Below, piece after piece: positions 21,332 through 34,941 of a stretch of 64,000 nucleotides of DNA. Source of the stretch: Bacteroidota bacterium (GTDB taxonomy: Bacteria > Bacteroidota > Rhodothermia > Balneolales > HLUCCA01). Both the position numbers and the translations under genes were made by a program. The stretch spans positions 62,001 to 126,000 of the forward strand of contig JAFIEZ010000008.1 of NCBI GenBank assembly GCA_020832235.1, given 5' to 3'. The first letter of the stretch is position 1; every line of letters begins with the position of its first letter. Below the pieces are notes generated by a model. The model saw nothing but the letters and a program-made list of their open reading frames with translations, was not told the DNA's origin and searched no databases.

Positions 21332-23623
21332 TTATGTTTTAAACTGGCTTAACAGTTTGTTCAATCCTTCAGAAAGCTGTGATAGTTCATGAGCACTTTG
21401 CTTCACCTGTTTAATTTCCTGGGTTGTGGTCGTCACTCCATTATTTACCTCTGTGATGTTTGAGGAAATTTCATTTAAACCGTTAACAGATTCTGCGACA
21501 TTCTGCGATATTTCCTCTGCACCTGCGCTTACACCGCTAATGTTGAATGATACTTCATTCACCGTTGCGCTTTGCTCCTCAACGGCTGTAACGATGGCTT
21601 GAGAGATAACATTTACCTCATCAATTACTCTGGCAACAGCATCAATAGATGAGACGGCATCTTCTGTGTTGCTTTGCATCTGTTCAATCTGTTGCTGAAT
21701 TTGATGGGTGGCCTGGGCGGTTTGTCTAGCTAGTTCTTTAACTTCATTTGCTACTACTGTAAAACCCTTGCCGGCTTCACCTGCTGATGCGGCTTCTATA
21801 GTGGCATTAATGGCCAGTAGATTAGTCTGATCAGCAATGTTATTAATCACATCAACAACATTACCAATTGATTTGGCCGCTAAACCCAATTTGTCCATTA
21901 TTTCCTTACTACTTCTAGCATACTTATTGGCTTCTTCAGCAATCTGCAACTCTTTTTGGCAGTTCCTTGAAACTTCACTAAGTGAAGCGCTCATTTCTTC
22001 TACAGCTGCAGCTACACTATTTGTTGAAGATGACATTCTGGTAACTGCCTGAGAAATTGAATCCAGGTTCATAGAAGATTGTTTCAACGCAGAAGCTACA
22101 GCAGACGTTTGCATACTCATCAGCTCAGCATTTGATGATATTTGAGTGGATGTAGTGGATAATTCGGTTGAAGATGACGCAACGGAGTCTGCATTTTGAG
22201 ATGCTGAAATCACTAAGGTCATAAGTTTATCGACAAAGGTGTTGAAGTATAGGGCCAATTTCCCAACCTCATCATTACTGTTCACATCCAACCGCTTTGT
22301 TAGGTCTCCTTCTCCCTCAGAGATGTCTTTAAGTCTATCAGCTACAAGCACAATTGGTCGTGATATCATTTTACCGATGACAAATGCAAGCAAGCCGGTA
22401 AGTATAAGAATGATTGCAGCTACCACTAGAGAACCTTGCATCATTTGTGCCAGACCTACCATGGCCTCATCATATGATTGCACAATACTGATACTCCAGG
22501 TCTTGCCCAAAATATTGAAATCGGAACTGGAAAAAACGGTTTGTTTTCCTTCGAAGGGTAGTACACCACTTCGCACTTCCATTCGATTTTCAGTATCAAG
22601 CCATGGTAACCCAATGTGGCTTCCGGGCGGTGCAATTTGTGAACCGTCTGACGCAAATCTTGAATTGCGTAAAGTAGTATTTCCGTTAGTGTCGGTGCCA
22701 CTAATAATGGTTTCTCCTGTGTACCCCATTCCATCTCTTGCATTAATAATGCTATTAATACGGTCTAGCGGCATTTGAAAAACGGCCACCCCTATCCGTA
22801 TACCGTCCTGAAAAATAGGACTTGCGATGAAACTGGCCGGGGCCATATACGAGGGAGGGTATACTTCGAAGTCTACAAATGCATAGGTGTCACCCTCGTC
22901 AAGACTGGAAGCCGCACGAAATACATCCGCAAAATTAGTTTCGGCATAAGGGCCGTCTAATAATGAGGTTTGGTAGTCCAGTTCTTTAAATACAGAATAA
23001 ACAATATGCCCGGTGTTTATATCTATCAGAAAAATGTCGTAATAACCAAACTTTTGCAGGTAATTTCGAATTATCGGATGGATTTGCGCATGCAAATTGC
23101 TGTAGTCACTTACATCACCTGCATGATTGAGAAGATCTTTGCTGCCTAGAGGGTGTGCATTGGCAGAAATATATTGATATTGAAAGGCAATGGTGATTTC
23201 ATCGAGATCTGCATACTGTTGCCAATCTGAATCCTGACCCGAGTTTAGATTTTGGAATTCAACATTGTATACGTCTCTGTAAAATTGGTTAACATCTTCA
23301 CGCATCTGGCTGACATAAACCGAATCAAACTGGTTTTGGCTAATGAATTCAGATCGCATGGCCGGAAACGCTGCCATAGCATGAACAATCATATTATTTT
23401 CAGAGAAGGTGAGCAACTGATCGCGAATTGTGTCGAAATAACGTTCAATATCTGTCTGTTTCAAGGCTCTGATTCCTTCAAGGCGGTCTATTGTAACCGA
23501 TAGCATCGCATCTTTTGCGATCATATGAGAGGCGATCTGCATAGATGCTACAACAATAGTACCTACCAGTATAAAGGCGGTAATAAGTTTCGATGCGATA
23601 CTTTTATTCATTAGTTTTTTCAT
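21332..23623 (-). CDS. methyl-accepting chemotaxis protein with dCACHE-type periplasmic sensor
   Basis: A 763-aa chemoreceptor. The ATG at 23623 ([13 protein letters not shown]) is chosen because a good GGAG ribosome-binding site precedes it by 8 bases; a start nine codons upstream keeps the frame. It has TM1 (about 10-32), a large periplasmic region (about 33-385) of dCACHE type, TM2 (about 390-415), HAMP (about 417-470) and a signalling domain. The signalling domain includes the hairpin tip [21 protein letters not shown] near 560. The periplasmic part contains [25 protein letters not shown], typical of the membrane-distal CACHE fold. No C-terminal CheR-tethering pentapeptide is visible (ends LLSQFKT). 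It is the last gene of the chemosensory cluster and probably senses small external solutes. Confidence 0.92.
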
Positions 23624-23690
23624 ATAAACATCTCCATTCACGTTAATCAATTAGCAACCAGTCGGTTACAATATGCCATGTAGTGTGTTG

Positions 23691-25274
23691 TTAATATTTG
23701 CCAACTTTCCTGTTCCAAAAGTGATTTGTAAGCTCTCGAATGGCGTTAATTGTAGAAGACATATCGCTGCTTGCTTTGGTATTCAGTTCAATATGCTCCA
23801 TATTATTGTGAGAGTGTGCAGTAATTGACGACAGACTTTGATTGATTTCATCTGCAGCAAGGCGTTGTTGCTCCACAATGAAAGCTACCTCTTCATTTCC
23901 TGACGCAATTCCTTGAATGGAAGCCAAAATCTGATCTAGAATAGCCACAGACCTGCTGTTTTCCTGACTGTTATTCGAAACCTTTGCTTTAGCATTTTGC
24001 ATCATTTTCGTTGCTTTGTCTGTACTGGCGTTAAGGTTCTCAATAACCTGCCCAATTTCTTCGGCTGATTTTTGAGTTCGTGCAGAAAGCGATCGAACCT
24101 GATCGGCAACTACGGAGAAACCTTTCCCTGCTGTACCTGCTCTGGCGGCTTCAATAGTTGCATTTAATGATAATAAGCGGGTTTGCTCTGAGATGTCTTT
24201 TATGACATCCAAAATAGACGTCACGCTGCCCGCTATAGTGGCGGCTTCTTTAACGGCATCTGCAGCTTCTTCAATTTCTGTATTTAAAATGTCTAGCTCT
24301 CGGGCATTCGAATCGATGACAGCTTTCCCGTGTTGTGCTTTTTCAAGGCTGCTTGTGGCATTCTGATAGGTTTTGGAGGCGTTGTCAGATACATCACGTA
24401 TTGTAGCAGACATTTCTTCAACAGCAGCTGCCACCCGTTCAATTTCGGAAACCAGACTATCTCCTCTTTCCCGCGCTGATTGCATAGAGCCATCGAGGTG
24501 ACGTGCAACCTCCGACAAGGTAGATATGGCATCGTTTACTCGTCCGATAATGGCTTTTTTCTCGGCTTCCAGCACGTGTAATGCCATATGTATTTTACTG
24601 GCTTCATCGTTTCTGCCGGTAATTATGTATCTGGAAACGGTATCATCATTAATGGCCTCCGCTTTAGCAATCAAATCGTCGAATGGTCTGTAAATGCCTT
24701 GAACTTGATGATAGAGTAAAGCACCCACTCCTAAAAGCAATATTGCCACCATCCAACCTTGCGGTAGTACTACGCTGCCTGTTATTCCCACCGCGAAAAA
24801 TGAAATAATGTTTAGTAAGAGGCGTTTTTGTAAGGAGAGCCCAGTCTTTAGTTCGGGGGTATCTTCTTTATTAATGAGCTTCTTGTAAAGTGCGTCGGCA
24901 CGAGATACGGTGTCTCGGTCTGGATTTCGCCTGACCGACTGGTATTCTATGATGGTGCCATTTTTAGAGATAGGGCTAACAAAGGCATTAACCCAGTAGT
25001 GATCTCCATTTTTACACCGGTTTTTTACAACGCCGATCCAAGAGCGGTTGGCCTGAATGGTATCCCACATGGTTTTGAAGGCTTCCCGAGGCATGTCGGG
25101 GTGTCGAATAATGTTGTGGGGCGCACCCTTTAATTCGTCTTCTTCAAAACCGCTAATTTCCAAGAAAGTGCGATTAAAAAAGGTGATTTTACCTTTAAGA
25201 TCTGTAGTTGACAAGATATTGGCATTCTCATCATATTTCAGTTCCCGCTGAGTTACAGGTACATTCTTTTTCAT
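23691..25274 (-). CDS. PAS-domain methyl-accepting chemotaxis protein (Aer-like)
   Basis: A 527-aa receptor with a cytoplasmic N-terminal PAS domain (about 10-125): [34 protein letters not shown] and [14 protein letters not shown]. This is the Aer-type block that in relatives binds FAD and senses redox or energy state. A hydrophobic hairpin (about 152-195) anchors it to the membrane with almost no periplasmic part. A HAMP-like linker follows, then a signalling domain with [21 protein letters not shown] near 365. FAD binding is not provable here. Its start overlaps the cheR stop by 4 bases (ATGA), so it is translationally coupled to cheR. Confidence 0.92.
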
Positions 25275-26200
25275 GGTTGTCTCAGGTTACCGTCGGTTAG
25301 TGTGATTGTATTGAGATGTGCAGGAGCCCGTTGTGTGTCTGAAGTGCCGGAGCTCACTTTGTATTGGTAATACACCGAGCGCAGGTGACGTTTAAGCTCC
25401 AAATTATGAGGTATTCCGGAAAGTGTTTCTGTTGACCCGATTATTAGAGCCCCGTCTTTTTTTAAAAGAGTACTCATATTCCGAAACAGGGTTTTTCGGT
25501 CATGCTCTTGAAAATAAATTCCAACATTCCGGCAGAATACGATATCAAACGTACCCATTGCTAGAGATTCTGTTAAGAGGTTGCCCTTTCGAAATGAAGC
25601 CAGAAAACGCAATTCGTCGTGAATCTTATATCCTTCGGGTACCCGTTGAAAAAAACGATTCAACCGCTGCGGTGTTAGTCCACGAGAGACCTCTAGTTCA
25701 GAAAATATCCCAATGCTTGCCTGAGCAACAGCCTTATCTGAAATATCAATACCGGAAATTTGAATATCATATGATTGGAGGTCAATCAAGAGCTCTTTTA
25801 ACAAAATAATCGTGCTGTATATTTCTTGGCCTGTAGAGCAAGCGGCACTAAAAATGCGTATTGGAATTTGCCTATGCCCCTCTTTTCTTCGCCGGTCTAT
25901 GAGTTCAGGTATGAGCTTATGACGGAGTAATTCGAATGGCGATTGGTCTCGGAAAAAAGACGTTTCATTGGTTGTTATTGCATTGATAACATGGGTATGT
26001 AAGCTTCCAGTTTTATCAAGCTGTACAGTTTGAAGTAAATTTGTCCATGATGTGCTTTTTGTACTTCGAAATAGCGAACTTAATCGTGTTTGAATGAGGT
26101 ACGATTTGGTGGTTTCCAGATAGATACCACTAGATTTCTGTATATAAGCACTCCAGGCATTCATTTCGGCTGGGGACAATATGGGTATAGCTTCCATCAT
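25271..26200 (-). CDS. cheR: CheR chemotaxis protein methyltransferase
   Basis: Methylates receptor glutamates with SAM to adapt the array. The 309-aa protein has the N-terminal helical domain (about 8-90), [21 protein letters not shown] (near 92-112), the SAM site [16 protein letters not shown] (near 137-152; most CheR have G-E-E-P-Y, here G-Q-E-I-Y), [12 protein letters not shown], and [13 protein letters not shown] (near 232-244; most family members have RNVLIYF). No TPR extension is present. Two adjacent Met codons start the frame; either may be used. It lies between cheB and the PAS-MCP gene and overlaps the latter by 4 bases. Confidence 0.94.
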
Positions 26201-26207
26201 TAGTGAC

Positions 26208-27317
26208 TCAATTTCTTCTGACTATTTGAATGATGGTTTCGGCCATATCACTCAGAGGAACACTGGCGTCTGCCAGACCTGCCTCATAAACCGAACGAGG
26301 CATTCCGTATACAACACAACTTTGTTCATCCTGAATGAGTGATAAACAGCCGGTTCGTTTCAATAGCCGAACACCAGTTGTGCCGTCGTTACCCATTCCT
26401 GTCATTACTACGGCTAGTGCCTTGCCGGGGAAGTGTTGTGATACCGATCGGAACAAGTAATCTACAGATGGTCTGCAATTATTTTCAGGGGCGTCTTCTG
26501 TTATCTGTATCTGCATATTTCCGCTGCTTGTTGCGATGACCCGCATGTGCTTTCCACCGGGTGCAATATAAACCACGTTTGAAGTCACCAGCATGCCGTG
26601 CGCCGCTTCCACAACCAAAAGTTCAGACTTTTTATTTAAGCTTTCGGCTAAGGAGAGTGTAAACAATGGTGGCATGTGCTGAACGATAAAAACCGGTACA
26701 CCCATGTCGGCAGGCAGTGCAGGAATAACTTGCGAGAGTGCATTAGGGCCACCCGTGGAAACGCCAATCACAATCATTTCGGGAGCCCGTGCAGGTCTCT
26801 GAAGATTCAATGAGTTCGCCCAAGATCCTTGCGAGTTACCTGAAACCGGCTCGTACGACGGTTTTACAAGTGTTTTGGGGCGCACTACTGTGCGATGGTG
26901 CCCCGCCCTCATTTTATGTCTGATACCTATTGAAAGTAAGCGTGGACGCAACTTCTCAATAAGTGTTTGTTTAACCGCATCAATGGAACCGTCTACAGGC
27001 TTGGTTATGAAGTCAAATGCACCGTACTCCAATGCTTTAACCGTTAGCTCTCCACCTCTTTCTGTATGCGCACTGATAACTATGAATTCGGGTGCCCAAT
27101 GGGTTCCTTTACTTGCCTTCAGTACATCCAATCCGCCCATTACAGGCATTTCCATATCAAGTGTAACCACATCGGGTTTTAATTCCTGGATTTTTTCAAG
27201 AGCCATTTTCCCATTAGAACACTCTGCAATAATTTCACACCCTTCTATACAAGCCAGAGCTTCTCTCATCAGGCGCCTGAATAAAATGGAGTCGTCGGCA
27301 ATCAGAACTGAAATCAT
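26208..27317 (-). CDS. cheB: CheB chemotaxis response regulator protein-glutamate methylesterase
   Basis: Removes or deamidates receptor methyl groups when phosphorylated by CheA. The receiver domain (1-120) has DD at 8-9, phospho-acceptor D54 in VTLDMEMPVMGG, and the Lys in FITKPVDG. The esterase domain (about 180-369) shows IGVSTGGPNALS (catalytic Ser), VQHMPPLFTLSLAESLN (His) and VMTGMGNDGTTG (Asp). A proline-rich linker connects them. All catalytic residues are present. The stop is 7 bases before the cheR start. Confidence 0.96.
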   Translation of the reverse strand: MISVLIADDSILFRRLMREALACIEGCEIIAECSNGKMALEKIQELKPDVVTLDMEMPVMGGLDVLKASKGTHWAPEFIVISAHTERGGELTVKALEYGAFDFITKPVDGSIDAVKQTLIEKLRPRLLSIGIRHKMRAGHHRTVVRPKTLVKPSYEPVSGNSQGSWANSLNLQRPARAPEMIVIGVSTGGPNALSQVIPALPADMGVPVFIVQHMPPLFTLSLAESLNKKSELLVVEAAHGMLVTSNVVYIAPGGKHMRVIATSSGNMQIQITEDAPENNCRPSVDYLFRSVSQHFPGKALAVVMTGMGNDGTTGVRLLKRTGCLSLIQDEQSCVVYGMPRSVYEAGLADASVPLSDMAETIIQIVRRN

Positions 27318-27390: not shown

Positions 27391-29178
27391 TCAGGCTGGT
27401 GTTAAACGAAATTGAAGCATCATACCTTTTAGCTTTCCTGCTAGTTGGGTGAGCTCTGTCGCACTAGCCTCCACTTGTTCTCCGCTCATGCGAATTTCAT
27501 TTGCCGATAAGTCAACTTGTGTAATTTCGTTTGCAGTTGCAGAGGTTACATTTGCTGTTTGTGCAATACGTTCGTTAGCATCACGAACACCCACGGTTGC
27601 CTGAGATATATTGGCTGCTACATCACGGGTTACCACCGATTGCTCCTCAATGGCTGTCGCTATACTATTTACCAGCTCACCTACTTCACTAATTACATCA
27701 GTAATGTCTCTAATATCACCAATAGCTCCGTTTGTGGATTGTTGAACACTTTCTACTTTCAGGCGGATGTCTTCCGTAGCAGTCGCTGTCTGACGGGCAA
27801 GATCTTTTATTTCATTGGCCACTACTGCAAATCCTTTGCCCGCTGCCCCAGCACGGGCAGCCTCTATAGTGGCGTTCAAAGCCAATAAATTGGTTTGCGA
27901 CGAAATATCATTAATGGTTTCTGTAACCTGACCTATATCTCGGGCCGCACTCCCAAGCTTCTGCATCAAGGCAGAAACAGCAGTGGCCCTATCGGCTGCA
28001 TTGTTGGTGATGCAACGGGCTCTCTCGGAATTGTTCGCTATCTCGTCAATAGTTGTGCTCATTTCTTCAGTTGCCGTAGCTACCGATGTGAGATTGGTGC
28101 TGGCCTCCTCCATGCTGGCAGCTACAGAGAAAGTGTTTGAACTAGTTTGCTGTGCGGATGTACTTACGATTGTAGTTCTATCGTGCATCTCTTGCACGCT
28201 TTGTGAAGTTTGTGCACTAATGGCAGAAAGCTGATTAGCCGAGTATGCCACAGTTTCAACACCACTGTTCATCTCAATAAGCAATTTTCGGGTATTATCA
28301 GCCATTCGCTCAAACGCCATGGCTAAGTCGCCCAAATCATCTGAGCGTCTGCTAACCCCAGGTGGCAGCTGAAATGTAAAATCTCCGCTTGCCAGTACAT
28401 TTGCATAATTCAGAATTTCAGTTATAGGCTTATCGATGCTTCTTTTTAATGCCCAGCCAAGCACCGAGGATACTGCCAATGCCAGTACAATAAATGATAG
28501 TATCCACTGAGTTATCAGGGCAACTTTTTGATTATTATTTGCAATCATTTCATCCGTTATCCGAGTGTTTTGATTAATTAGCGCTAAGATAAGTTGGGTC
28601 ATTTCATCTGACTTCTGAAGCATATCTTGCATCCCGGAGTCATATTTTTGAAAAAGAGATGTCAGCATTAACATGGGTTCAGCAATAGTTTCCTCGTACC
28701 CTGGGGTGGACGACGACGAGTACAGCTGGTTTTTCACTTCAATCATCTGTGCTATCAGCCCTTCAAGTACCCGCTGAGACTCCCGCCAATGTGCAAAACT
28801 CTCTTCTAATTCCGCTACAAGTGCCCGCCCTCTTTCTGTTGCTCTGGGAATAGCTAAAATGGTATTGAGTGCATGCTCAGTTATATCCCAACTTTTTGCT
28901 CTGCTTTCCAATATTTGCATCAGCTGTATGTTTGCATCGTCTTGCCCGAATACCTGATATACTTGCAAGGATTGAGCGTGTATAAGCAGACGTTCATAAT
29001 TGAGGTCACTTATGTTCCTGTAACCGGGGAACCGTTCTTGCGAGAGCGTATCAAGATCAGATTTCAGGTGTTGAACTCCCCAAAGTCCCAGTCCTCCCAT
29101 TGCGCCAAGCATAATGAGAAGGGTAGTAATTACAAGGAGCAATCGTTTGCCGATTTTAATATTATTAAGGTGTAACAT
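27391..29178 (-). CDS. methyl-accepting chemotaxis protein with four-helix-bundle sensor
   Basis: A 595-aa receptor with TM1 (about 12-35), a periplasmic helical region of about 190 residues consistent with a 4HB/Tar-like bundle, TM2 (about 225-250, [20 protein letters not shown]), HAMP (about 250-305) and a methyl-accepting domain whose tip reads [21 protein letters not shown] near 430. The C-terminus ([10 protein letters not shown]) has no CheR tether. It is directly downstream of cheW and upstream of cheB, the usual place for the cognate receptor of a chemosensory operon. The ligand is unknown. Confidence 0.92.
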
Positions 29179-29237: not shown

Positions 29238-29723
29238 TCAGGTGCTTACCTGACCTTCTTGCCAGATGAAAAACTGTTTCGAGTCGATGATTGTGACAAT
29301 GTCTCCGTTGTAACGCCAAAGCCCTTTAATTCTTCCTTCTAATTTCACGGGTATGTTACCCGTTGCCGGCAAAAGTGATGTGTAGTCAACAGGGATTGCC
29401 TCAAGAACGGAATCAACCATGAAGCCGTAAGCGTCGCCATTTGATTCTGCCAAAATAAGACGGTTATTTTTCCCGGTCTTATAACAACCTGTACCCAGAT
29501 GAGCGGCCAGATCAATTACGGTAATAATTTTACCCCTGAGGTTTCGTACACCAATGATATCACTTGGAGCATTATGTACACGGGTAATTTCCCCTACACG
29601 TACTACTTCCTGAATAAGGGAAGCATCAAGCCCGTACCGTACACCGTCCATCGTGAAAATGGTGGTTAGCGTACCGTCGGAATTTTCGGCTTCAAATGTT
29701 TTTTTTGTTGTTCGTTTTTCCAT
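29238..29723 (-). CDS. cheW: CheW coupling protein
   Basis: A 161-aa single-domain scaffold that links receptors to CheA. The CheW fold is visible: IFTMDGVRYGLDASLIQEVVRV (about 23-44), NAPSDIIGVRNLRGKIITVIDLAAHLG (56-82), RLILAESNGDAYGFMVDSVLEAIPV (88-112) and the closing GLWRYNGDIVTIIDSKQFF. The NLRG and D-L motifs used for receptor and CheA contacts are present. Its start is 58 bases after the cheA stop on the same strand. Confidence 0.93.
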   Translation of the reverse strand: MEKRTTKKTFEAENSDGTLTTIFTMDGVRYGLDASLIQEVVRVGEITRVHNAPSDIIGVRNLRGKIITVIDLAAHLGTGCYKTGKNNRLILAESNGDAYGFMVDSVLEAIPVDYTSLLPATGNIPVKLEGRIKGLWRYNGDIVTIIDSKQFFIWQEGQVST

Positions 29724-29781: not shown

Positions 29782-32700
29782 TTAATTTGCATACACCGCA
29801 GTTAAATTTTGGATACTGTTGAGCAGACCCGCACGATCTAGTTTTACCTGGTACTCTGTTACACCCGCGGTGAAGCCTCTCGATTGATCTTCATCGCTGG
29901 CTAATGAGCTAACCGCTATAATTGGCAGAGAAGACGTTCGCTCATCTGCACGTATTCTGCTGGTTAATCCAAGGCCGTCTAAATGTGGCATTTCAATATC
30001 GGTAACCACCATTTGTATCTTATCCAGATTTGCCAACAGTACCTCCCAGGCTTTTTCCCCATCCGGTGCTTCGTAAACGTCATACCCTGCGTCTGATATA
30101 AAACGCTTTACCTGAGAACGGAAAAAATCGGAATCTTCGGCGAGTAAAACTCCAAGCTGCTGTTTTGAAGTCCCATTTTGACTCCCATCAGACGGAGTTG
30201 TAGCTGATACATCCGGGCTTGGAATGGCGTGAATTGATACGTGTTGGTGTTCTACTCCATTTGACGAAAACGATGGACTACTCGCACGTACAATTTCTTC
30301 GATATCGGCGAGTAATGTGGTTTTGCCTTCAATGATCAGCGAGCCTAGAATACCCGTTTGCCTGTGGGTTTGCATATCGATGACAGGTTGGGTGTGAACT
30401 ACATTAATTGGCATTGTTCCCAGTAATCCAACGGTTTTCCCATCTACCTCACTGACCAGAACAACAGGGTCCCCGTGCTCGTCAATGCGTTTCACATCGG
30501 TACAATCTTCGAGCAGGAATAGCGGCAACATACCTCCTCTGTATTGTATGGTTCGACGCTTAGATAGTAGCTCTACTTGATTCCACGTAATGCGTTCAAT
30601 TCGGTCTATGTGATCCATAAGCACAGCAAACTGTTCATCCGCACCGTTGCCGAACAACAAGAAAGGTTGTATGTCGTCATTGGTTGTATGTTCATCAATA
30701 TTGATGTTCTGCTGCAGGTTGTTGGTTATCTCATGAATTGCTGCTTTCTGTGCAAGTCCATTGGAGTCAAGTATAAGTGCCACCGACCCGTCTCCCAATA
30801 TGGTTGCTCCTGCGTACTCGTTTAAGTGTTTCAAACGTTTACCGAGGGGCTTTACAACAACCTCTTCTGTTGTGTGCAACCAGTCAAATTCTGTAGCGAA
30901 GGTATTTACACCATCTGTTAATACCACAATTTCATGTGTTGGCAACCTTTTTGTAACTAGAACATCAGTTTCGATATTAAATAGTGAACGAAACTGAACA
31001 AAAGGGATGATGGTATCACGTAGCACCAAAACCTGTGCAGTACCTATGGAGTTAATGAAGTTTGCGGCTTCATCTTTTTGAATGCTTACCAATTCTTTGA
31101 TATTCGCCTGGGGAATTGCGAAACGCTCTTTCCCGGCAGATACAATTAAAGTTGGAATAATGGCCAGCGTGAGGGGGAGCTTAATACGGAATGTCGATCC
31201 GTAACCGATGCGGGTTTGAATATCTACATGACCACCCAGGCGTATAAGGTTCGTTTTTACCACATCCATACCAACTCCACGCCCCGATATGTCAGACAGT
31301 TTTTCAGCAGTACTTAACCCAGGTTGGAATATGAGATTGAGCTTATCTTTGTCGCTCATCTCATCAGCTTGTTGCTGTGTTATCAACCCTTTTTTTACGG
31401 AAGAGGCGGCTATATGGTCAGCATCTAACCCTTTGCCATCATCAGCTATTTCAATAATTACTTGCCCTGCCTCATGTCTGGCTTCAATTCGTACGGTTCC
31501 TTCAACGGATTTACCGGCTGTTCTTCTCTCATCAACAGTTTCAATACCGTGGTCAATGGCATTGCGTACCATGTGCATCAGGGGATCGGAGATACCTTCA
31601 ATCAGGGTTTTGTCGAGCGCAACGTCTTTGCCCGAAATAATCAGATTGATTTGTTTGTTCAACTGGCGAGACAAATCCCTTACTACCCGTGGGAATTTAT
31701 TAAATACATTTCCAACCGGTTGTAAGCGAGTCTGCATAATGACATCCTGCAACTCGGTTGTAACTTGATTTATACGTTGTTCGGCTGATATCAGGGAATG
31801 GTCTGTTTTGTTTTTTACTACGGTTCGCAGCTCATTTCGGCTTAATACCAGTTCTCCCGCTAAGTTCATCAACGTTTCCAGCGTGCCAACCTGTATTCGG
31901 ATGGTTTCGTCAGCAGCGCTACTGCCCAGACGCACCTCACCCATTGGGTTTACCTCTTCTTTGGGTACGTTAAGGGTACCCTCTATTTTGGGCTGGCTGA
32001 GCACTGAATCGACTGGCTGGTTCCTTACTTCTACCGAAGATGAATCACTGTTTTGGGGTATTTGAGAAACTAATGTGTTATCTGCAGATGATTCAGCTAC
32101 ATTTTTTTCAGCGGAAGCGTCAATCGCATGCTCAGCAGAGTCAACCCGGTCTACAACCTCTAAGGGATGAATATTCTTAGGTTCAACGGTATAAAGCAGG
32201 CTCTGAATGCCTTCCAGATCTTTCTCAATAGCTACAATCAGGCAAACGGGAAGCACATTCCCAACCGGAGCATCCAGCCCTCCAATGGCATGGAAGTCAA
32301 GCTTGCTTTCGATGATTTCACCATACTTAAGCAGAATGCGGAATAGTGCCATGATGGTTATCCCACGACGCTCAACATCTTTAATAAAATCGAGGTTAAC
32401 CCAAAATAAATTTCGGGATTCGCGGATCGATCGCTCAAGGTCGGAGGCAGGCAACTCGAAACTTCTTAAGGAATCGAGAGTCTGTACGGTGATAGTTTGA
32501 GGCTGCGGCTCCGAATGTTCTAGCACACATGTGCTTTCGGTTGCGAGCATATCCAGATTCTCAAGTATTTCAGATATATCCTCATCTTCGGCACGATCTA
32601 TGTTATTTACCAGATGACGCAGCGTATCGAACGCTGTGAGTAAGGCGTTTGTAACTTCTGCATTAGGACTGATTTTATCAGTTCTGAGCATATCGAGTAT

Positions 32701-32910
32701 GGTTTCCGACTTATGAGCTAGTGCCGTGATATGCTCTAAATCAAAAAAACCACTGCCACCTTTAATTGTGTGCGCTGCCCTGAAAACCTTGTTAATTAAT
32801 TCCAACTCAACCGACTCTCCCTGTTCTTCTATACTCAGAAGATCGTTTTCTATTCCCGAAAGTAATTCGAGGGCTTCATCAACAAACTCTTTGATAAACT
32901 CGTCATCCAT
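29782..32910 (-). CDS. cheA: hybrid CheA histidine kinase with extra CheW domain and C-terminal receiver
   Basis: Central kinase of the chemosensory array, 1042 aa. Domains: HPt (about 1-105, phospho-His near 47 in AAHTIKGGSGFF); P2-like domain (about 150-265); P3 dimerisation (about 345-405); ATPase P4 with HMVRNAIDHGIE, ADDGKGLD and GRGVGMDVV; CheW-like P5 (about 595-730); a second CheW-like domain (about 765-905, FAVLMDHIDRIERITWNQVE); and a receiver (about 920-1042) with phospho-Asp in VVTDIEMPHLDG. In the receiver the conserved Lys is followed by Leu (YQVKLDRAG) rather than Pro. The start is set at the second Met (32910) because AGGGAG lies 6 bases upstream; a Met two codons earlier is too close to it. 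It overlaps the STAS gene by 8 bases. No free CheY is encoded nearby. Confidence 0.93.
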   Translation of the reverse strand: MDDEFIKEFVDEALELLSGIENDLLSIEEQGESVELELINKVFRAAHTIKGGSGFFDLEHITALAHKSETILDMLRTDKISPNAEVTNALLTAFDTLRHLVNNIDRAEDEDISEILENLDMLATESTCVLEHSEPQPQTITVQTLDSLRSFELPASDLERSIRESRNLFWVNLDFIKDVERRGITIMALFRILLKYGEIIESKLDFHAIGGLDAPVGNVLPVCLIVAIEKDLEGIQSLLYTVEPKNIHPLEVVDRVDSAEHAIDASAEKNVAESSADNTLVSQIPQNSDSSSVEVRNQPVDSVLSQPKIEGTLNVPKEEVNPMGEVRLGSSAADETIRIQVGTLETLMNLAGELVLSRNELRTVVKNKTDHSLISAEQRINQVTTELQDVIMQTRLQPVGNVFNKFPRVVRDLSRQLNKQINLIISGKDVALDKTLIEGISDPLMHMVRNAIDHGIETVDERRTAGKSVEGTVRIEARHEAGQVIIEIADDGKGLDADHIAASSVKKGLITQQQADEMSDKDKLNLIFQPGLSTAEKLSDISGRGVGMDVVKTNLIRLGGHVDIQTRIGYGSTFRIKLPLTLAIIPTLIVSAGKERFAIPQANIKELVSIQKDEAANFINSIGTAQVLVLRDTIIPFVQFRSLFNIETDVLVTKRLPTHEIVVLTDGVNTFATEFDWLHTTEEVVVKPLGKRLKHLNEYAGATILGDGSVALILDSNGLAQKAAIHEITNNLQQNINIDEHTTNDDIQPFLLFGNGADEQFAVLMDHIDRIERITWNQVELLSKRRTIQYRGGMLPLFLLEDCTDVKRIDEHGDPVVLVSEVDGKTVGLLGTMPINVVHTQPVIDMQTHRQTGILGSLIIEGKTTLLADIEEIVRASSPSFSSNGVEHQHVSIHAIPSPDVSATTPSDGSQNGTSKQQLGVLLAEDSDFFRSQVKRFISDAGYDVYEAPDGEKAWEVLLANLDKIQMVVTDIEMPHLDGLGLTSRIRADERTSSLPIIAVSSLASDEDQSRGFTAGVTEYQVKLDRAGLLNSIQNLTAVYAN

Positions 32911-33235
32911 GGTCATCTCCCTGAGTAGATGTTACATTAATTCTCTTGGTTAACCGCATCAGTGATAAAAGACGGTATATATTTTCAGAGACATTCCGAA
33001 TTTCCACACTTCCATCCAACAGATTCATAGAGTTATGGCATGCAACCAGTAACCCGATGCCACTGGAGTCTAGATACGTTGTTTCTGTTAAGTCAAAAAC
33101 AACTTTTGAAATGTCGTCGGTAATAGAATCAAGCAAGTGACCCTGAAATTGATGTACTTCTTCTGCCGTAAAATTAGTTTTACAGGTAACCATCAGGCAG
33201 TCATTATTGACGGTTAATAATGGTATTTCACTCAT
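32903..33235 (-). CDS. STAS-domain anti-sigma factor antagonist
   Basis: A 110-aa SpoIIAA/RsbV-type protein that in known partner-switch systems binds a serine-kinase anti-sigma factor when unphosphorylated. The signature VVFDLTETTYLDSSGIGLLV (residues 45-64) contains the Ser pair S57-S58, one of which is the expected phosphorylation site. A ribosome-binding GGA lies 8 bases before the ATG. Its 3' end overlaps cheA by 8 bases, so translation of the two is coupled. The upstream gene encodes the matching PP2C phosphatase, but no HATPase anti-sigma kinase (RsbW-like) is present in this window, so the partner must be encoded elsewhere. Confidence 0.92.
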   Translation of the reverse strand: MSEIPLLTVNNDCLMVTCKTNFTAEEVHQFQGHLLDSITDDISKVVFDLTETTYLDSSGIGLLVACHNSMNLLDGSVEIRNVSENIYRLLSLMRLTKRINVTSTQGDDHG

Positions 33236-33332
33236 GTCAGTATTCCTTTTCTAATTTTCTATAAAAGCATGTATAGTTTCCGGGCAATCCCATTTTACGT
33301 GTGTGTATCTACGTTGCGCTACAATGATCATG

Positions 33333-34478
33333 TTAAACCTCAACGATCATTAAAATGCTGTCATCGTGTGAGAACGAACCTAGCCGTTGTAATTGAGTAT
33401 GGCTTTGGGCAATGGCCTTACGTACACAGAGCTGCATGGTTTTCTGTGCCATTTCAGCCAATTTAGTTATACCCTCCTGCATGTCTTCAAACCCTTCAAC
33501 AAGGCCGTCTGTATAGATGAATATTCTGGTTCCAAGCCTTACATTTAATGTCGTTGAGGCAAATACAGCATTAGGAAACATGCCTAAAATGTCGCTTTCC
33601 TGATCGAAGATGGAGACTTCGCCATGAGGAGAAATTATAATTGGAGGAGGGTGCCCCGCGCTTACTAAGGTTACGGTTCCATTTTTTTTGTTTACACGTG
33701 CCAGGAGAATCGTAAAGAATTGATGGATTGGCAAAATTTTCAGTAGTGACTTGTTGATTAACTGTAAAATTTCATCGGGAGTGTTTAGAACAGTGGCATA
33801 TTCGTGAAACAGCGCCTTTAGAGTGGCTGTCCACAGGCTGGTGTCTAAATCGTGCCCACTTGCATCTGCAATAATATAGTCCCACAGGTTTGTGCCTGTT
33901 TGCACCACATCGTAGAAATCGCCTCCTGCATGGTTTATTTGTTTCATTTGAACAGCAAAACTTGCGCCAGGGAGGTTGTCAGGATGGGGCATCATAAGCT
34001 TTTGTGAGTTCCCCAGTTTTTTGAGTCTTTCCGATTGTAATTCGGTCAGACGTTCGTAAGCGGCACGAAGACGCAAGTGGGTTTTAACCCGCGCCAGGAT
34101 TTCCAGTTGATCAAAGGGCTTTGTAATGTAATCAACAGCACCTGCATCAAATCCTCTTATCTTTTGTTCGGAAGTTTCGTCAGCTGTTACAAAAAGAACG
34201 GGGAATGTCTGATTTAAGTGATTGCTTTTATAATTTAAGTACCACTCAATGCCATTGCCATCCGGAAGGTTTATGTCAAGAAGCATCAAAGAAACGTCGT
34301 GTTCTTCGAGAAGATTACCGGCAATAGTCAGGTTTCTTGCCCAAATGGTGTCGTAGCCGTACCCTTCCAGTACTTTTTGAAGGATAATAGAAGAAGTTAA
34401 CTCGTCCTCAACAATCATGATTAGAGGACTTTTTGAGCTTTCTGAGACGGGTAATGTATTTGACGGTTCAGTCCTCAT
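33333..34478 (-). CDS. response regulator with PP2C (SpoIIE/RsbU-type) phosphatase output
   Basis: A 381-aa regulator: receiver domain (about 17-135) with acidic pair near 24-25, phospho-acceptor D68 in LMLLDINLPDG and Lys in YITKPFDQ; a coiled linker (about 135-175); and a PP2C-type phosphatase (about 185-381) with metal-ligand motifs GGDFYD, ADASGHD, YTDGLVEG and HDDSILM, all intact. Such proteins dephosphorylate STAS antagonists, and one is encoded 97 bases downstream. As first gene of the chemosensory operon, its receiver is a natural target for CheA phosphotransfer, giving a possible route from receptors to gene expression. This resembles HsbR/IcfG-type modules; the connection to CheA is inference. 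Confidence 0.92.
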   Translation of the reverse strand: MRTEPSNTLPVSESSKSPLIMIVEDELTSSIILQKVLEGYGYDTIWARNLTIAGNLLEEHDVSLMLLDINLPDGNGIEWYLNYKSNHLNQTFPVLFVTADETSEQKIRGFDAGAVDYITKPFDQLEILARVKTHLRLRAAYERLTELQSERLKKLGNSQKLMMPHPDNLPGASFAVQMKQINHAGGDFYDVVQTGTNLWDYIIADASGHDLDTSLWTATLKALFHEYATVLNTPDEILQLINKSLLKILPIHQFFTILLARVNKKNGTVTLVSAGHPPPIIISPHGEVSIFDQESDILGMFPNAVFASTTLNVRLGTRIFIYTDGLVEGFEDMQEGITKLAEMAQKTMQLCVRKAIAQSHTQLQRLGSFSHDDSILMIVEV

Positions 34479-34854: not shown

Positions 34855-34941
34855 TGGTGCCCTGGACTGGACTCGAACCAGCACGCCGTTGCCAGCACTA
34901 CCCCCTCAAGATAGCGTGTCTACCAATTTCACCACCAGGGC
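34855..34941 (-). tRNA. tRNA-Leu (anticodon GAG), CCA encoded
   Basis: An 87-nt class II tRNA on the minus strand. The acceptor stem GCCCTGG pairs with CCAGGGC, then discriminator A and an encoded CCA. The anticodon arm is CTATC-TTGAGGG-GGTAG (one G-U pair), putting GAG at positions 34-36, which reads CUC/CUU leucine codons. A long variable arm (GCTGGCAACGGC region) and a T arm with the GTTCGAGTC loop are present, as expected for leucine tRNA. Its 3' end faces the chemosensory cluster. Confidence 0.95.

Follow-up and report, generated by a model that had tools for sequence, protein, structure and literature searches.

A chemosensory operon with a probable partner-switch output in a Balneolales bacterium

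The 64,000-nucleotide stretch of DNA analyzed here (hereafter, the window), from a genome of the order Balneolales of the phylum Bacteroidota, contains a chemosensory operon that probably exerts partner-switch control rather than motor control, because the operon opens with the genes for a receiver-controlled serine phosphatase (REC-PP2C) and its likely target, a STAS-domain protein. We moderately favor the reading that this operon encodes a second, non-flagellar array whose dedicated output is a partner switch, running from CheA through REC-PP2C and STAS to an RsbW-like kinase. The CheA-fed partner switch of the original prediction remains the most economical reading, being backed by the complete set of genes in a sister species and by a joint loss in a third relative; its weak side is that CheA carries a receiver of its own and that no SigB/SigF-like client was found among the region-3 sigma factors of the genome.

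The operon and its first three genes

The operon occupies the minus strand of the window, from position 34478 to 21332, in the order REC-PP2C, STAS, cheA, cheW, mcp, cheB, cheR, PAS-mcp, mcp. The product of the first gene (33333..34478), a SpoIIE-type phosphatase of 381 aa, consists of a receiver (Response_reg, 3.7e-22, residues 20-132) and a SpoIIE/PP2C domain (1.8e-33, residues 202-381); the chain ends after PP2C and lacks a kinase/anti-sigma (HATPase) domain. The receiver is intact, with an invariant D68, and the metal-binding catalytic motifs GGDFYD, ADASGHD, YTDGLVE, and HDDSILM are all present. These domain matches and motifs bear out the original description of this protein as intact, which cited D68 and the first three motifs. 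The AlphaFold model of the protein is of middling quality (pLDDT 63.6), and the PDB structures 3eq2 and 3f7a, which we take to be RssB, match it over its full length. The RssB-type REC-pseudoPP2C proteins have the same domain order, but the window protein differs from them in its intact PP2C motifs.

The second gene (32903..33235) encodes a single-domain STAS protein of 110 aa, of the anti-anti-sigma type (PF01740, 2.8e-14), with a phosphorylatable DSSG motif (S57 by homology). The PF01740 match and the intact YLDSSGIGLL site (D56-S57-S58) agree with the earlier assignment as an intact antagonist (S57/S58). The stop codon of this gene and cheA overlap by 8 nucleotides, as originally claimed, with the likely cheA start at the ATG at 32910 (the MDDEF start, as in relatives), and by 14 nucleotides if cheA is taken from the longest-ORF start at 32916.

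CheA (29782..32910; 1044 aa) comprises Hpt, dimerisation, HATPase, and two CheW-like domains and, at the C-terminus, a receiver (residues 923-1025, 2.2e-17) with the conserved D, S/T, and K positions, a feature that the original prediction missed; this receiver is also kept in two related genomes described below (G002 and G101). It may serve as a sink or provide another output. The receiver of FrzE, the hybrid CheA of Myxococcus, acts mainly as a sink or brake (PMC4546325), and CheA3 of Rhodospirillum centenum transfers phosphate within the molecule and then to the receiver of another protein (PMC3868531); given these precedents, a sink inside CheA is an expected companion of an output other than CheY.

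The cheA gene is followed, on the same strand, by cheW (29238..29723), a gene for a transmembrane MCP with a four-helix-bundle sensor and HAMP (27391..29178), the genes for the receiver-containing methylesterase CheB (26208..27317) and the methyltransferase CheR (25271..26200), a gene for a PAS-domain, Aer-like MCP (23691..25274), which shares its first 4 bases with the end of cheR, and a gene for a third MCP with a large sensor region (21332..23650). The third MCP has no counterpart adjoining the operon in the sister species G002. As originally stated, there is no cheY, cheZ, cheC, or cheD within the operon; for CheY, this holds for the operon but not for the genome, where it is encoded in a flagellar che cluster.

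Comparison with related genomes

Among 60 near relatives, true orthologs of REC-PP2C and STAS were identified only in G002, a sister species of the same genus, and G054, of the same order. The survey of synteny in related genomes that was proposed with the original prediction found the operon shared with G002, and REC-PP2C and STAS adjoining the orthologous cheA in G054, the earliest-branching member of this CheA clade in the order. In G002, the order is REC-PP2C, RsbW-like HATPase, STAS, hybrid CheA, CheW, MCP, CheB, CheR, PAS-MCP; the gene of the linked kinase (~150 aa; HATPase_c_2, PF13581, 1.1e-15) overlaps the phosphatase stop. Where G002 carries the kinase gene, the window has 97 bp between REC-PP2C and STAS, an informative gap that had gone unremarked. 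The G002 kinase has no detected ortholog in the window genome or elsewhere among 129 genomes of the order; within the window genome, the best match is a kinase on contig C13, at 28% identity, and both leftover kinases of this genome have low similarity to the G002 kinase.

The gap contains a 26-codon ORF, MIIVAQRRYTHVKWDCPETIHAFIEN (33251..33331, minus strand), the ATG of which sits one base past the phosphatase stop and which aligns with the N-terminus of the kinase without gaps, at equal distance from the start (HVKWDCPETIHA / YVSWRLPSTLSA). This in-register score was attained by 3 of 3857 start codons followed by 26 open codons, the scanned sequences including both the remnant and the start of the kinase gene. 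In a six-frame control without the positional constraint, the score was attained in 54 of 2000 shuffles and in 41 of 659 window 97-mers; without that constraint the match is unremarkable, and, the remnant being short, the statistics hinge on position. A Pfam search of the 26 residues recognized no family. This ORF is probably what is left of the N-terminal part of an RsbW-like kinase gene, and we consider it quite likely that the kinase gene was deleted in the window lineage. An assembly artefact is an unlikely cause of the missing kinase because the frames of the neighboring genes and the ribosome-binding site of STAS are intact, inside a 286-kb contig. A different history, in which the kinase gene was inserted in the sister alone and was never ancestral, so that the 26-codon ORF matches by chance, gains from the 101 bp between the two genes of the outgroup G054, which hold no recognizable kinase remnant, and from the unconstrained six-frame controls, which reach the score in 3-6% of cases, but it sits poorly with an in-register match that is rare among start codons and lies directly past the phosphatase stop. 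We rate it as possible but rather unlikely; it is, moreover, compatible with the main mechanism.

The genes on either side of the gap show no accelerated evolution. In a relative rate comparison with G054 as the reference, the unique changes in the window and G002 lineages number, respectively, 25 and 24 in REC-PP2C, 6 and 9 in STAS, and 62 and 57 in CheA; as the window lineage shows no excess, the REC-PP2C/STAS branch is not visibly decaying. In G054, there is likewise no kinase between REC-PP2C and STAS, and both proteins are intact. All three species that retain STAS conserve both its DSSG/DSTG motif and the catalytic motifs of PP2C.

Another member of the order, G101, has the orthologous cheA-cheW-mcp-cheB-cheR-PAS-mcp operon, with neither STAS nor REC-PP2C beside it, and yielded no STAS match of ortholog grade. 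A REC-PP2C ortholog (E 4.6e-99) is encoded on another contig (C69; L138:4471-5691); its receiver is intact, but the catalytic aspartates of PP2C are lost, the motifs GGDFYD, ADASGHD, YTDG, and HDD reading EGVLFD, AETDNLD, FCSG, and STE. PP2C is degenerate in this ortholog only, being intact in the window genome, G002, and G054; apparently, an RssB-like architecture arose here independently. With STAS and PP2C catalysis lost together, and the receiver and CheA kept, G101 provides the best support that the sequences offer for an action of PP2C on STAS and for a receiver that responds to CheA.

REC-PP2C orthologs, searched for among 129 members of the order and 395 members of the phylum, were found only in genomes with this CheA clade, namely, the window genome (G000), G002, G054, and G101. 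The next-best REC-PP2C proteins of the phylum are 26-30% identical; some adjoin other STAS/RsbW genes, and none adjoins cheA in the neighborhoods examined. Scanning a contig collection with REC-PP2C yielded a single, distant match, to the receiver, and a plasmid collection yielded generic matches to REC-PP2C and none at all to STAS. The nearest CheAs in the plasmid collection, some of them hybrid, come from Azospirillum, Rhodovastum, Deferribacter, and Nostoc, with no PP2C adjoining cheA in the annotated stretches.

Two additional loci were observed in the course of these searches. On the megaplasmid of Vibrio sp. THAF190c (L216:13992-17163), REC-PP2C, STAS, and RsbW-like genes are clustered away from cheA. 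In G005 (contig C127), an ORF of ~100 aa (L194:1710-2021) located ahead of another cheA of the order looks STAS-like by eye and has no Pfam family match.

Proposed signal flow and its alternatives

The window genome (3.38 Mb, 20 contigs, 96.8% complete) contains a second che cluster, overlooked in the original prediction, on contig C18, where genes for CheY, a CheX-like protein, CheA, CheW, CheR, CheD, and CheB sit among flgB, flgC, fliF, and fliG (names read off the translations). In the tree, this flagellar CheA is far from the window CheA. Given the flagellar CheA/CheY cluster, the window array appears to be a second system that is not needed for the flagellum and, presumably, is non-flagellar.

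The genome was also searched for the kinase and sigma factor expected from the original prediction. There are two clear RsbW-like kinases, C18:107645 and C13:97627, the latter encoded alone; thus, kinases do exist elsewhere in the genome, as had been proposed, but that of the sister is operon-linked. The sigma-B-like factor did not materialize: the three sigma factors with region 3 (Sigma70_r3) are two RpoD/RpoS-like proteins and one FliA, and none of them reaches the SigB/SigF cut-off. SpoIIE-type phosphatases number seven and STAS matches six, of which those on C3 (the window STAS), C18, C19, and C10 are single-domain proteins and those on C5 and C2 lie in proteins of >500 aa that are probably transporters. 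At C18:107269-109765 (L053:7255-9775), kinase C18:107645 is part of a complete operon of STAS, RsbW, and PP2C that makes up a self-contained partner switch.

In the mechanism that we propose, receptors would set CheA autophosphorylation, and CheA-P would hand phosphate to D68 of REC-PP2C; the C-terminal receiver of CheA, also phosphorylated by CheA, would act as a sink or brake. In its phosphorylated form, REC-PP2C would dephosphorylate STAS at S57, and unphosphorylated STAS would bind and sequester the RsbW-like kinase, freeing the client of the kinase. In G002, every part except the client is encoded within a single operon. The window species would draw on C13:97627 or C18:107645 for the kinase, or the system would run without one; with the linked kinase gene gone, STAS would, most likely, be phosphorylated by one of these two. 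Each transfer of phosphate is inferred from the protein families involved; the stand-in kinase and the client are likewise inferred. What speaks against this reading is that the window genome has no dedicated kinase and that the tie of the leftover kinases to STAS is putative.

A bolder reading, which we deem unlikely, is that the array drives the switch without any dedicated kinase, either because its phosphatase and STAS were rewired, once its own RsbW-like gene had been deleted, to one or more other RsbW modules of the cell or because STAS now acts on CheA. Rewiring would merge receptor input with another stress switch, and STAS acting back on CheA would close a loop inside the array.

A further alternative is a CheS-like role for STAS, as an accessory that binds CheA and alters how phosphate flows among CheA, the receiver of CheA, and REC-PP2C, with no RsbW-like kinase involved; under such a role, the linked kinase could be lost. 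The 8-base overlap of STAS with cheA, the absence, in both the window and G054, of a kinase gene separating REC-PP2C from STAS, and the precedent of rhizobial CheS, a STAS-only protein of a che operon that binds CheA and affects CheY handling (PMC12654446), are all consistent with this possibility. However, the three species with STAS all have conserved DSSG/DSTG and PP2C catalytic motifs, the operon of the sister includes a kinase gene, and PP2C catalysis decays in the relative that lacks STAS, and we consider a CheS-like role improbable. We see slightly less room for an output through CheA's own receiver, or through cross-talk to the flagellar CheY, with REC-PP2C and STAS as a side branch. 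That receiver is intact and conserved in G002 and G101, and a flagellar CheY is encoded in the genome, but the equivalent FrzE receiver in Myxococcus is mainly a sink or brake (PMC4546325), the flagellar CheY is encoded with its own, phylogenetically distant CheA, and REC-PP2C tracks this CheA clade even where the genes are unlinked. A vestigial switch, silent because the kinase was lost and STAS stays unphosphorylated, with the loss too recent for decay, would fit the lack of a linked kinase or an ortholog elsewhere in a ~97%-complete genome and the erosion of the same branch in G101, but it is similarly doubtful, given that all motifs are intact, that there is no rate increase, and that G054, likewise without a kinase between the genes, keeps both proteins intact.

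Relation to known systems

The favored output, from CheA through REC-PP2C to STAS and an RsbW-like kinase, has partial counterparts in Proteobacteria, of which CrsR/CrsA and HsbR/HsbA are experimental analogues that speak for it. In the che1 (F7) system of Shewanella oneidensis, CrsR and CrsA are encoded beside Che proteins and MCPs (PMC9855816), so that, as in the window, a receiver-phosphatase regulator and a STAS antagonist reside in a complete che locus with MCPs, and a second, flagellar che system is present. However, che1 has CheY and CheD, whereas the window operon has neither and has a hybrid CheA-REC; CrsR is a single protein with receiver, PP2C, and kinase/anti-sigma domains, whereas here the kinase is a separate gene (in the sister) or is missing (in the window); and the che1 client is RpoS, whereas the two RpoD/RpoS-like sigma factors of the window genome are candidates by family only. 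The oldest, 'stage 1' F7 che clusters of gamma- and betaproteobacteria also contain anti-sigma factor antagonist and serine phosphatase genes (PMC7184735), as does the window cluster; they differ in having cheY, cheD, two cheW-like genes, two antagonists, and another gene order. Pseudomonas HsbR, a REC-PP2C-kinase protein, acts on the STAS protein HsbA (PMC6482189). HsbR/HsbA and CrsR/CrsA resemble the window pair, judged by its genes and motifs, in combining a receiver-controlled, catalytically intact PP2C with a STAS protein that has a phosphorylatable serine; unlike in the window, the input of HsbR/HsbA comes from HptB with hybrid kinases rather than from a chemosensory CheA, and the kinase domain is fused to HsbR.

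Che3 of R. centenum (PMC3868531) and Frz of Myxococcus (PMC4546325) share with the window operon a CheA with its own receiver and a non-standard Che-like output, but these outputs are, respectively, the hybrid kinase CheS3 with CheY3 and motility polarity proteins, not PP2C/STAS. CheS3 is distinct from the STAS protein CheS of rhizobia; the latter, like the window STAS, is a STAS-only protein encoded in a che operon but acts by binding CheA, with no REC-PP2C partner mentioned in PMC12654446.

The original prediction called the fusion of a che operon with a partner switch unusual, which is true of this lineage, for which we found no previous report of such an operon in the literature, but not in general, because fusions have been described (PMC9855816, PMC7184735). 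Distinctive here are the separate kinase gene (in the sister) or none (in the window), the hybrid CheA, the lack of CheY and CheD, and the different phylum. If the favored reading holds, partner-switch output of chemosensory arrays would extend outside Proteobacteria, in a setting where CheA is a hybrid and CheY is absent from the operon. Together, the four genomes make up a natural series, with a complete switch, with the kinase missing, and with STAS missing and the phosphatase turned into a pseudo-enzyme, so that the order CheA, REC-PP2C, STAS can be tested by comparison and simple biochemistry.

Immediately upstream of the operon start lie a tRNA-Leu (GAG) gene (34855-34941) and a terminator-like hairpin. 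The operon is patchily distributed, being present in two of the three members of the genus and absent in the other two members of the family that were searched; together with the tRNA gene, this distribution could be a sign of an acquired segment.
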